A stretch of 64,000 nucleotides of DNA, from assembly GCA_028284415.1 (NCBI GenBank), contig JANQRU010000004.1:868001-932000 (forward strand), given 5' to 3'. The notes beneath the pieces were generated by a model, which saw nothing but the letters and a program-made list of their open reading frames with translations, did no database searches and was not told the origin of the DNA. A program made the translations under genes and the position numbers. Of the stretch, positions 58,849 to 64,000 are shown one piece after another; the first letter of the stretch is position 1; every line of letters begins with the position of its first letter. The stretch comes from Pyrinomonadaceae bacterium (GTDB lineage Bacteria; Acidobacteriota; Blastocatellia; Pyrinomonadales; Pyrinomonadaceae).

Positions 58849-60036
58849 ATGAAAACCTCTTTAGCTTTAATTCTGATCTCAGTTTTTCTCCAAATCTCAG
58901 TTTTTGGAGAAATCAAACTTGTTCCTCAAAAAATCGAACTGACAAACGGCAAAGTGTTTACATTAAATTTGCCCGAAGAATATGAAATCATCCCTGCGTT
59001 TGAAAATTTACGTCGCATAAGATTTTTAGCAAAAGCACCAGACGGCAGAATTTTTGTAACAGATATGCAGGATATGAGTGATAACAAACGCGGTAAAGTG
59101 TATATTCTAGAAGATTTTGATAAAAAAACGGGAAAATTCGGAAAGGTTATAACCTTTTTAGACAGATTGCGAAACCCAAACAGTATTGCCTTTTACACAG
59201 ATCTGTTTGGAAGACACTGGTTTTATGTTGCAGAAACTCATCAATTAACCCGCTATCGCTACAAAAAAAATACCAACATCCCAATTACTAATCCTCAACT
59301 CGTCGCACGTTTTCCAGCTTATGGACGCAGTTATAAATATGGCAGTTGGCACTTAACTCGCACAATTGCTTTTTCACCAGACCGCAAACTTTACGTTTCA
59401 ATTGGTTCAAGTTGTAATTCCTGCATTGAAAAAGAAAGAATGCGGGCGACCGTCTTAGAAATGAAACCTGATGGGAGCAATTTGCGTTATTTTGTAAAAG
59501 GTTTGCGAAACGCGGTTGGATTAAAATGGGTCAATAACGGGCTTTATGCAACAAATATGGGAGTTGACCATTTGGGCAAAGATGAACCTGATGACACATT
59601 TTATAAATTAGAAGAAAATGCAGATTACGGTTGGTCATTTTGCTACCAAATTAACGGAAAAATAACGCATGACCCGAAGTACGAATTACCCGATCTGCCA
59701 CCGCCAAATTGTAGCGTCGTTCCAAAATCTTTTGCATATTTTCCGGCTCATAGTGCAGCGATTGGATTTGATTATTTCGATGAGAAAGCTTCGGAAGAGT
59801 ATTTGAAAGATTCTTTTTTGGTTGCTTTGCACGGCTCGACAAACAGAAAAGACGGACGCGGCTATAAAGTAATTGCTCTACAGAAAGACGGAAAGCAAAA
59901 AGATTTTTTGACAGGTTTTCTTGAAGGGCAGAATGTTTACGGTCGCCCATGTGACATTATGAAATTGGATGATGACTCTTTTCTTTTAACTGACGATTAC
60001 AGCGGAGTCATATATTTGGTTAGAAAAAGACTCTGA
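58849..60036 (+). CDS. Secreted glucose/sorbosone dehydrogenase-like protein (paralogue 2)
   Basis: 395 residues with a signal peptide (LALILISVFLQISVFGE). Very similar to the preceding protein through its whole length: LRRIRFLAKAPDGRIFVTDM, LRNPNSIAFYTDLFGRHWFY, GSSCNSCIEKERM and VKGLRNAVGLKW. The two Cys of the CNSC pair are kept, the C-terminal YLVRKR is kept, and the blade insert differs (DPKYELPDLPPPNC). The pair must be a recent tandem duplication. The 140-base gap between them holds no gene. Confidence 0.85.
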   Translation: MKTSLALILISVFLQISVFGEIKLVPQKIELTNGKVFTLNLPEEYEIIPAFENLRRIRFLAKAPDGRIFVTDMQDMSDNKRGKVYILEDFDKKTGKFGKVITFLDRLRNPNSIAFYTDLFGRHWFYVAETHQLTRYRYKKNTNIPITNPQLVARFPAYGRSYKYGSWHLTRTIAFSPDRKLYVSIGSSCNSCIEKERMRATVLEMKPDGSNLRYFVKGLRNAVGLKWVNNGLYATNMGVDHLGKDEPDDTFYKLEENADYGWSFCYQINGKITHDPKYELPDLPPPNCSVVPKSFAYFPAHSAAIGFDYFDEKASEEYLKDSFLVALHGSTNRKDGRGYKVIALQKDGKQKDFLTGFLEGQNVYGRPCDIMKLDDDSFLLTDDYSGVIYLVRKRL

Positions 60037-60103
60037 GTGGGCATTTACAAACAATAAGTGGTAAATTAGGAATATAATTTAGTCTTTATCGGTTTATCTT
60101 TAT

Positions 60104-61249
60104 ATGAATATAGGAATTACGGTTTATCCGACCTATGGTGGAAGCGGAATTGTTGGTTCGGAAATAGGTAGGGAATTGGCGGATAACGGTCACAATGTTC
60201 ACTTTATTTCGTCAGCTCTGCCAACCCGTCTTACAGAACTTAATGAGCGTGTTCATTTTCACGAAGTTGAAATGATGAACTATCCGCTCTTTGAGCACCA
60301 ACCTTACGATCTGGCTCTAGCAACTAAAATGGCAACGGTCGTGCGTTCAGAGAATCTTGATTTGTTACATGTTCACTATGCGATTCCTCATTCTATTTCA
60401 GCAATCCTTGCAAGAGAATCAATAAAGCAAAAGCGTTATGTGCCGGTCATTACAACCTTGCACGGCACAGACATAACACTTGTCGGAGCTGATAGAAGTT
60501 ATCTTCCAATCACAAAATATGGTCTTCAACAATCTGACGGCGTTACAGCTGTCTCCAGATTCCTAAAGCAAGCGACCATCGAAACTTTTGATTTTGATGA
60601 GATAGAAGTGATTCCAAACTTTATCTGTCCAAATTATTATCAGAGAAACTTTGATCTACCGCTTAGAAAAGAGCTTGTTAATGACGGCGAAAAATTACTC
60701 GTTCACGTTTCAAATTTCCGCCCTGTAAAACGTCCGCAAGATTGCATCGAAGTAGCCGCAAAAGTTCGGGGGAAGGGGGGAAACGTAAGACTCGTAATGG
60801 TTGGTGACGGACCCGAACGTTCAGCTTGCGAATACAGGGCAGAACAGCTCGGCATCAAAGAATACACGGACTTTGTTGGTAAACGTGATAACATTGCTGA
60901 TTATTTAGCGGTTGCAGATATTTTCCTCCTTCCCTCGGAATCAGAATCCTTTGGATTAGCCGCACTCGAAGCACAAGCTTGCGAAGTTCCTGTAATTGCT
61001 TCAAGAATCGGTGGAATTCCCGAGGTCGTAACTGACAAGGAAACAGGTTTTTTGAGTGATGTTGAAGATACGGAAAAAATGAGTGAAGACACTTTGAGAC
61101 TGCTAAATGATGATGAAATGAGAAGGGCATTTGGAGAAAGAGCCAGAGAATTGGCAGTTTTGCGATATAGTGCAACGGAGATAATCCCGCAATATCTTAA
61201 GTTTTATGAAAAGATTTTAGGAGAAGCTAGATCAGCAAGTGCAACATAA
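60104..61249 (+). CDS. bshA: N-acetyl-alpha-D-glucosaminyl L-malate synthase BshA
   Basis: 381 residues, GT4 GT-B fold. The family start MNIGITVYPTYGGSGIVGSE and LHVHYAIPHSISAILARE are typical of BshA, and the C-terminal ESESFGLAALEAQACEVPV carries the EX7E pair. It joins UDP-GlcNAc and L-malate in the first step of bacillithiol synthesis. A small membrane protein gene overlaps its end. bshB and bshC are not in the window, though a PIG-L family gene of a different, secreted type lies 2 kb downstream. Confidence 0.92.
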   Translation: MNIGITVYPTYGGSGIVGSEIGRELADNGHNVHFISSALPTRLTELNERVHFHEVEMMNYPLFEHQPYDLALATKMATVVRSENLDLLHVHYAIPHSISAILARESIKQKRYVPVITTLHGTDITLVGADRSYLPITKYGLQQSDGVTAVSRFLKQATIETFDFDEIEVIPNFICPNYYQRNFDLPLRKELVNDGEKLLVHVSNFRPVKRPQDCIEVAAKVRGKGGNVRLVMVGDGPERSACEYRAEQLGIKEYTDFVGKRDNIADYLAVADIFLLPSESESFGLAALEAQACEVPVIASRIGGIPEVVTDKETGFLSDVEDTEKMSEDTLRLLNDDEMRRAFGERARELAVLRYSATEIIPQYLKFYEKILGEARSASAT

Positions 61250-61385
61250 AGAAGAGATCAAAAACGAAGAAGTAATCGAAGATAAACCGGATTCCTGGTG
61301 GAACAAAGTTTATCTTTCAGTGTTTATATACACAATTTTAATAATTTCTTTATTAGCAACTTTTTCTTGGTATTTTTCCAAATAG
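61239..61385 (+). CDS. Small membrane protein, overlapping the bshA 3' end
   Basis: 48 residues starting at a GTG that overlaps the last codons of bshA by 11 bases (GGAG is about 18 bases upstream, so translation may be coupled). An acidic/basic N-terminal stretch (HKEEIKNEEVIEDKPDSWW) is followed by one membrane helix (VYLSVFIYTILIISLLATFSWYF, about 25-47). It may be a small accessory to the symporter encoded downstream, but nothing proves that. Confidence 0.6.
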   Translation: MQHKEEIKNEEVIEDKPDSWWNKVYLSVFIYTILIISLLATFSWYFSK

Positions 61386-61456
61386 AACACAGATTAAACA
61401 GATTACGCGAATTCCCGCGGATTTTTTATAAATATCCATGAAACCTGTATTCTATT
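61381..61456. repeat. Dispersed inverted-repeat element (copy 2)
   Basis: AATAGAACACAG at the left end pairs imperfectly with CTGTATTCTATT at the right end. The centre contains ACGCGAATTCCCGCGGATTT. It resembles the element at 13853-13948 in its ...AGAAC(A/G)CAGATT... arm. Its left end overlaps the stop of the small membrane protein, so a transcription-ending role is possible. Confidence 0.55.
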
Positions 61457-61530
61457 CATCTTTAGCAATATTTTAGTTGGCAAATTGAAAACCGACTTCT
61501 AAATAACAAAACTTTCCCCAAAATAAATCT

Positions 61531-63207
61531 ATGAGATGGCTTGATTGGATAATTGTCTTTGCATACTTAGCGTATGTCATTTGGGACGGAATCCGTCTGA
61601 CCAAAGGCAGTAATAATATCGAAGGATTTTTCCTTGCGAATCGAAGCATGCCTTGGTGGGCAGTTGGGCTTTCGGTAATGGCGACGCAAGCTTCAGCCAT
61701 CACGCTTGTTGGTACAACGGGACAGGGCTATGACGATGGAATGCGTTTTGTGCAATTTTATTACGCACTGCCGATTGCGATGATAATTCTGTGCGTTACG
61801 GTCGTGCCGTTTTTTCATAAGGCAAAAGTTTATACGGCTTATGAGTATTTAGAAAATCGTTTTGATGCGAAAACTCGAACGCTAACGAGCTTTTTCTTTT
61901 TGCTATCGAGAGGTTTGGGGGTTGGTGTAATTATCGCTGCTCCTTCTGTGATTCTCTCAATCATCTTAGGTTGGAGCGAAATAATAACGATTTTTGCCAT
62001 CGGTTTAACAACTATTTTTTACACGATGTTTGGTGGAATCCAAGCCGTAACTTGGACAGATGTTAAACAGATGATACTCGTTTTTGCGAGTCTTGGCGTT
62101 GCCTTCTTCGTAATCCTGAGCAATTTTCCTGAAGGTGTTTCATTTACAGATGGGTTAAATCTGGCAGGTGCGAACGGGAAATTGACAACTGTTAATACGG
62201 AATTTGATTTAACGGAAAAATACACTATTTGGTCAGGATTGATTGCGGCTTTATTTTTGTTTTTGTCATATTTCGGTTGTGACCAAAGCCAAGTGCAGAG
62301 GTATCTAACAGCAAAATCGGTAGATGAAGGGAGAACATCCCTTTTAATGTCAGCATTTTTAAAAATACCAATGCAGGCTTTGATTTTGCTGATTGGTGTG
62401 ATGGTTTTTATTTTTTATCAATTCCAATCTCCGCCGATGATCTTCAAAGAAAATGAAGTTACGCAAGCAAAACAGATTAATGCGACCGAATATAATCGCT
62501 TGGAAAGTGAATACAAAGTTGTTCACTCCGAACGTAACAAAGCCGCTCTCAACTATTTAGAAAAGAAAAAACAGGGAAATCAGACAGAGGTTGAAAAATC
62601 ACGTAAAGAATACGTAAAAGCGAGCAAAGACTTCACAGAAAAACGCAAAGAAGCAAAAGAATTCATCAAAAAAACAAATGATGATGCAAAGTTTAATGAT
62701 GTAAATTACATTTTCCCAACCTTCATAATTTCCTATATGCCAATCGGTTTAGTCGGTTTGCTAATTGCGGCGATCTTTGCGGCGGCGATGTCGAGTATCT
62801 CTTCGGAACTCAATGCACTTGCAACAGCGACAACCATAGATTTTTACAAACGACATTTTAATCCTGACGGAACTGACAAACAGTATGTTTTATTCGGAAG
62901 ATTAGCGACATTGGCTTGGGGATTATTGGCGTGCGTAGTAGCAATGTATGCAACCAATCTTGGTTCATTGATCGAAGTCGTTAATAAATTTGGTTCATTC
63001 TTTTACGGTTCGATTTTAGGTGTTTTTGTTCTCGCCATTGGAATTAAGCGTGCGAGAGCAAGAGGTGCTTTTTTCGGACTTTTGATTGGAATGGCATTTA
63101 TTGGAATTGTAAGTAATTACACAGATATAGCGTTTCTCTGGTTTAATGTTGTTGGCTGTGTCGTAACGGTTGTGGCAGGATATTTGATTAGTCTTACAAC
63201 TGAATAA
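61531..63207 (+). CDS. Sodium:solute symporter (SSS family)
   Basis: 558 residues, about 13 hydrophobic helices. Family blocks include [40 protein letters not shown] and [12 protein letters not shown]. The helix pair around [22 protein letters not shown] gives the Na+ site in the second half. A charged hydrophilic loop (about 300-395) with Lys/Glu-rich heptads is an insertion beyond the common fold and likely faces the cytoplasm. Transported solute unknown. It starts 75 bases after the preceding repeat. Confidence 0.9.
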
Positions 63208-63210
63208 GGT

Positions 63211-63346
63211 TTAACCGCAAAGGTTGCGGAGGTCGCAAAGTTTTTTATGTTTACTAAATTATATTATCAAGGTTTTGGTCTGAAAATTCGCTTCAAGTTA
63301 TCCACCATTTCTTTACTTTGCGTTCTTAGCGTCCTTTGCGGTTCAA
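63211..63346. repeat. Inverted repeat with arms AACCGCAAAGG
   Basis: The left arm (63211-63240) begins TTAACCGCAAAGG. The right arm (63316-63346), CTTTGCGTTCTTAGCGTCC followed by TTTGCGGTTCAA, is its imperfect inverse complement. Repeats of this kind are common in several bacterial phyla (from memory). The right arm is in frame with, and forms, the hydrophobic core of the signal peptide of the downstream PIG-L protein. Confidence 0.62.
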
Positions 63347-64000
63347 TTTCTGCACAAGTTCAGCCGATTTATGATCGTGGTGCGATGGGATTGGGACAGA
63401 TGCTCAAGCGTTTGAATAATACGAAACGTGTGATGCACATTGCGGCTCATCCTGACGATGAAGATTCGGGTTTACTTGCATATCTGGCGAGAGGCGAAAA
63501 CGCTCGGACGGTTTATTTATCTTTGACGAGAGGCGACGGTGGGCAAAATGTCATCGGTCCCGAATTGTTTGAACCGCTCGGAATTATACGCACGGAAGAA
63601 CTTTTGCAAGCGAGAACTCTCGACGGTGCGGAACAGCTTTTTACGAGAGCTTTCGATTTTGGTTTTTCAAAGACTTTGGCAGAAACAAGAGCAAAGTGGG
63701 ATGAAGAAAAAGTTAAATGCGATGTTGTCAGAGCAATTCGTTCTTTTCGACCACAGGTTGTAATTTCAAGGTTTTCTGGAACTCCAAATGACGGACACGG
63801 ACATCATCAGTTTTCGGGTTATTTAACTCCAATTGCAATAGAAGCAGCCGCCGATAAAAATCAATGCAAAGATGCAGGAATGCCTTGGCAGGTTTTGAAA
63901 TTTTACGTCGGACAAAGTTTCAGAAGCCGAGAAGAACCGCAACTGAAAATCAACACAGGAAAATACGATTCTCTGCTTGGGCGTTCATACTTTGAAATCG
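63247..64000 (+). CDS. Secreted PIG-L family deacetylase (3' end outside window)
   Basis: 251 full codons, open through the right edge. Signal peptide about 1-36 (STISLLCVLSVLCGSISAQ), encoded partly by a repeat arm. The mature part begins VQPIYDRGAMGLGQMLKR. AHPDDE (residues 67-72) is the zinc-binding motif of LmbE/PIG-L proteins, and RFSGTPNDGHGHHQFSG carries the second metal His. The long extracellular form is typical of Acidobacteriota and acts on N-acetyl sugars or an unknown amide. It is not the cytoplasmic BshB of bacillithiol synthesis, despite being near bshA. Confidence 0.88.
   Translation, partial: MFTKLYYQGFGLKIRFKLSTISLLCVLSVLCGSISAQVQPIYDRGAMGLGQMLKRLNNTKRVMHIAAHPDDEDSGLLAYLARGENARTVYLSLTRGDGGQNVIGPELFEPLGIIRTEELLQARTLDGAEQLFTRAFDFGFSKTLAETRAKWDEEKVKCDVVRAIRSFRPQVVISRFSGTPNDGHGHHQFSGYLTPIAIEAAADKNQCKDAGMPWQVLKFYVGQSFRSREEPQLKINTGKYDSLLGRSYFEI

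Follow-up and report, generated by a model that had tools for sequence, protein, structure and literature searches.

The window analysed here is the whole stretch of DNA, 64,000 nt in length. A sodium:solute symporter gene (SSF, Pfam PF00474) occupies positions 61531..63207 of the plus strand. It is followed on the same strand by a PIG-L deacetylase gene (Pfam PF02585, E 1.1e-14), which starts at the ATG at 63247, 39 nt beyond the SSF gene, and runs past the window end (63247..64000). The full-length PIG-L protein in the genome has 928 amino acids, and the two genes also adjoin each other in several relatives. A repeat search of the window placed an inverted repeat at this junction, with arms at 63210..63241 and 63315..63346 that are 32 nt each and 78% complementary, separated by a spacer of 73 nt (63242..63314). 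All three segments were read on the plus strand. The left arm, TTTAACCGCAAAGGTTGCGGAGGTCGCAAAGT, lies upstream of the PIG-L start and ends 5 nt before the ATG, which is itself within the spacer. An earlier note on this DNA had assigned the left arm and spacer to the start region, and this is where they are. The spacer codes the n-region MFTKLYYQGFGLKIRFKLSTISL of a predicted leader, MFTKLYYQGFGLKIRFKLSTISLLCVLSVLCGSISA (63247..63354, plus strand), which was delimited using the ORF, the orthologs and hydropathy and precedes the Q of the QVQPIYD motif, which is conserved. In frame in the PF02585 ORF, the right arm encodes LCVLSVLCGS, which forms the leader's hydrophobic core. For this one gene the repeat appears to have been recruited as coding sequence, as the earlier note had proposed. 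Rfam covariance models produced no match to positions 60000-64000 of the window up to E 1.

The arms belong to a dispersed family. Family arms are built of tandem 9-mers, CTTTGCGnn, with outer ends AACCGC...GCGGTT, and paired arms face each other. The spacers between paired arms differ in length and sequence and are not conserved between copies. When the pattern AACCGCAAAGGnnGCnnAGGnCGCAAAG was matched to the window, the left arm had 0 mismatches and the right arm 1, and two such matches were found in 0/100 window shuffles. Arms were counted genome-wide using pattern searches. In the host genome a three-unit pattern gave 12 matches and its reversed control none, while a two-unit pattern gave 40 matches compared with 8 for the control. 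The shuffles and the three-unit counts place the match between these arms and the family far beyond chance, and both the inverted repeat and the dispersed family suspected from the window alone are real. In our judgement ∼27 of the 30 places fetched from the 5-Mb host genome are real arms.

The best 11-residue Kyte-Doolittle window of the PIG-L leader scored 2.86, and 1.29 once the arm-coded residues were removed. Leader hydropathy across 12 orthologs was 2.28-3.44. Shuffling the right arm in place gave a mean hydropathy of 1.61; 25% of the shuffles ran into a stop codon, and 1.2% of the stop-free shuffles reached 2.86. The drop without the arm and the low shuffle mean identify the right arm as the provider of the leader core. 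With respect to the criteria for Sec signals of the SPase I type, the n-region ends in K/R and is followed by a hydrophobic core within the ortholog range. By inspection, a small residue precedes the cleavage point (marked by an arrow) in ISA↓Q, where orthologs keep A or S before the Q. The cleavage motif, SA↓QVQPIYD, lies at the 3' edge of the right arm or slightly beyond it and is conserved in repeat-free orthologs. The right arm had been credited with the core and the cleavage region together. The first half of that claim stands, while the second fails, and by comparison of the sequences the arm contributes the hydrophobic core, but the predicted cleavage site comes from outside it. The orthologs have no arms, and their leaders are unrelated but end in the same AQVRPIYD motif. 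Since orthologs without the repeat already have signal peptides, the repeat was not the source of export. On the evidence of these alignments, what the repeat appears to have done is rebuild the core of a pre-existing signal peptide, not create export.

The only Shine-Dalgarno (SD)-like motif near ATG 63247 is GGAGG (63228..63232, plus strand), inside the left arm and separated from the ATG by a gap of 14 nt. No in-frame ATG, GTG or TTG occurs between 63247 and the mature domain, so there is no later start of these three kinds with its own signal, the finding that the earlier note had named as contrary to its proposal. A CTG at 63280 is an alternative start that gives a compact leader of 25 amino acids, MKIRFKLSTISLLCVLSVLCGSISA, with AAGG 7 nt upstream as read by eye. 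The predicted start at ATG 63247 is not fully settled, given the long SD gap and the possible use of CTG 63280, but the role of the arm is independent of the choice. We infer that translation begins at ATG 63247 and that the leader is exported and then cleaved.

Coding potential was assessed in 72 distinct arms. On the CTTTGCG strand, frames 0 and 1 were open and hydrophobic in 72/72 (means 2.25 and 2.15), and the opposite strand was hydrophilic in the same analysis. A hydrophobic helix is therefore inherent to the arm frame, as had been suggested.

We consider it probable that a PIG-L gene whose product was already secreted received a copy of the dispersed hairpin repeat across its 5' end, and that the right arm of this copy now codes the signal-peptide core. 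The right arm, in frame in the leader, would have become the core, the spacer would have supplied the n-region, and both the mature protein and the site of cleavage would be ancestral. A signal peptide requires little beyond a hydrophobic helix. Since two of the three frames on the arm strand read as a stop-free hydrophobic helix, co-option has a simple reason, and the arm could have been tolerated or selected.

The distance from the SSF stop codon to the cleavage point between A and Q is 144 nt here and 80 nt at locus L026, from the same genus. It is 55-77 nt at L028, L030, L032, L045 and L049, 136 nt at L035, 189 nt at L051, 254 nt at L031, and 1296 nt at L025, where other DNA lies between. 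The excess over L026, 64 nt, equals both arms summed and not the 137-nt unit, and the leader minus the arm has no hydrophobic core left. Insertion of the arms only into a working leader is thus not a full account, and to judge from these distances replacement or later remodelling must have been involved. We infer that insertion or replacement, and not drift, brought the arm here.

Two other explanations bear directly on the leader. In the first, the arms act as RNA or DNA structure, the hairpin hiding the ribosome site and controlling translation while the hydrophobic codons are incidental. Consistent with this, folding of the mRNA region gave -40 kcal/mol (z -3.5), the start codon lying in the loop and GGAGG being part of the stem, and the repeat family is mostly intergenic. 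However, folding is expected of any inverted repeat, regulation by the hairpin is no more than a possibility, and the h-region still requires the right arm. We regard this explanation as unlikely, though translation control by the hairpin can be compatible with coding co-option, our preferred explanation. In the second, point substitutions drifted the leader into an arm-like sequence by convergence, motifs such as FASFA and LCVLC being suited to signal peptides. A look-alike of this kind is known. The closest look-alike found elsewhere is an amidohydrolase-like leader containing CTTTGCGTCCTTTGCG, present in two genomes (L264, L265), but it was rejected as a second case of co-option since the ortholog L273 aligns to it ungapped and lacks the motif, and it is probably convergent. 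The amidohydrolase-like motif consists of two units, and no partner for it was seen, whereas the PIG-L motif spans three units (28 nt, one mismatch) and is paired with an inverted arm outside the coding region. The host genome also has many further copies of the arm. Convergence at PIG-L is therefore very improbable.

The co-opted arm comes from a family that is widely but unevenly spread. Exact three-unit arms were found in at least 116 stretches in a scan of a wider collection, and the matches listed include Cyanobacteria, Chloroflexi, Acidobacteria, Planctomycetes, Verrucomicrobia, Bacteroidetes, Proteobacteria, Methylomirabilota and Hydrogenedentes, along with the archaeon Methanoperedens. 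Within its own phylum the family is patchy, with exact three-unit arms in 2/396 genomes and near-exact ones in 5/60 relatives, the host being included in both counts. A loose search for partner arms had a high control rate (57/116), and its partner counts were not used. At E 0.05 the arm consensus matched one plasmid (Calothrix), at no listed feature, and had no match in phages. Searching plasmid proteins with PIG-L added nothing, and a literature search by arm sequences returned nothing related. Two genomes contain related families of intergenic hairpins (L257/L258 in one, L251-L255 in the other) with conserved flanks, ATGATTCGTGAATTCGTGGCTGC... and AGT[CA]AAGT[CT]TTGAA[TC]CG..., which suggests, from the flank sequences, recent multiplication within those genomes. 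Arm arrays in alternating orientations, with up to six exact arms in ∼260 nt, were seen at L129 and L072 (Anaerolineae MAG).

Copies were then classified by position, using gene calls from our own ORF picker and no trained gene finder, so that the counts are approximate. Among the matches listed, 100/113 non-edge copies from other genomes were intergenic. Four of the 113 were called as sense N-terminal arms, and these are start-site overshoots or doubtful ORFs. At L087 and L147 the proper ATG comes after the arm, L145, in GC-rich DNA, resembles an antisense ORF, and at L161 just a TTG precedes the arm; none was accepted as an arm-coded leader. This left 0/113 convincing leaders among the matches listed. 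PIG-L was the sole leader case among the ∼27 arms of the host genome, where the earlier note had called for a count of copies at the 5' ends of secreted genes. A screen of 396 genomes for ATGA plus two units mostly retrieved short ORFs within intergenic elements, plus look-alikes, the amidohydrolase-like gene (L264, L265) being the best real gene among them; in a peptidase-like leader (L262) and a lipoprotein-like leader (L259) short two-unit matches were all that was found. That the repeat acts as a carrier that distributes export signals to genes, an idea raised by its two intrinsically hydrophobic, stop-free frames, is extremely unlikely with no convincing leader among the 113 copies listed from elsewhere, one among ∼27 host arms, and an ATGA-plus-arm screen dominated by intergenic-element ORFs. 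Although the repeat occurs in many phyla, its co-option as a leader is rare, and PIG-L looks like a one-off.

Other in-gene copies code TAKDAKTAK-like linkers or tails. An oxidoreductase-like gene (L014/L178) reads in frame through a whole arm-spacer-arm pair, which forms part of a loop (LTAKDAENAK...NFATFAVENFDK). This loop is short in most relatives, the exception being L179, which has its own long insert of unrelated appearance. In a MetH-like gene (L012/L189) the arm lies in a variable linker. Both gene names were given by eye from sequence. Several MetH-like relatives (L190-L198) carry Ala/Glu-rich stretches (TAEGAENAE etc.) at the position of the arm, and from their composition these are perhaps decayed older copies. 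Two genes end in arm-coded C-terminal tails. At L311, L326, L097 and L134 the 3' end of a gene overlaps an arm, which encodes a tail such as LTAKDAKTAKNL followed by a stop; all three frames are open on that tail-coding strand, and in-gene copies on it mostly use the TAK one. In-frame copies within otherwise conserved genes thus comprise the oxidoreductase-like loop, the MetH-like linker, the two tails and the PIG-L leader. It is conceivable, at a slim chance, that all of this belongs together: a cross-phylum hairpin family of tandem 9-mers, for which no mover is known, would serve as a frame-safe coding insert, giving a hydrophobic helix from one strand and an Ala/Lys helix (TAKDAKTAK) from the other, and its PIG-L copy would act as signal core and, at the same time, as a stem-hidden ribosome site that controls translation.

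The PIG-L leader is a concrete case in which non-coding repeat DNA was turned into part of the export signal of a bacterial protein, and the census bounds how often this happens. For the repeat family itself, with its arms of tandem 9-mers, no mobilising enzyme is obvious.

REP and REPIN elements have short inverted arms dispersed between genes and are associated with RAYT transposases. The CTTTGCGnn family resembles them in its short inverted arms scattered between genes, while its spacers are strongly variable. Arms flanked Y1_Tnp at 0/6 PF01797 matches in the host genome, and the MPNHxH motif was found at 0/116 loci among the matches listed. Mobilisation by a RAYT was rejected, as the Y1 transposases of the host genome have no flanking arms.

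The nearest architecture found is in Geobacter metallireducens, where paired sites on opposite strands, at variable distance, consist of three tandem TCTCCGTS[Y] units of ∼9 nt; the class 1-3 sites were called unique to that genome (PMC2700814). The unit sequence differs from that of the CTTTGCGnn arms, and the likeness is architectural. Rickettsia palindromic elements (RPEs) are in-frame inserts in many Rickettsia genes (PMC10969869). Like the CTTTGCGnn family they are palindromic, lie in frame inside protein genes and are tolerated in variable regions, but they are ∼150 bp long and often in genes, whereas CTTTGCGnn copies are mostly intergenic, and the likeness is one of description. In Yersinia pestis the predicted signal peptide of YPO1552 contains an RU-2 repeat, and homologs of this protein have unrelated leaders (Delihas 2007, PMC2759123). 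RU-2 codes residues 1-30 of YPO1552, whereas the PIG-L arm codes the core alone, and the repeat sequence and host differ. The event is nevertheless of the same kind, and to what was already known from Yersinia RU-2 and the Rickettsia RPEs the PIG-L leader adds another case.
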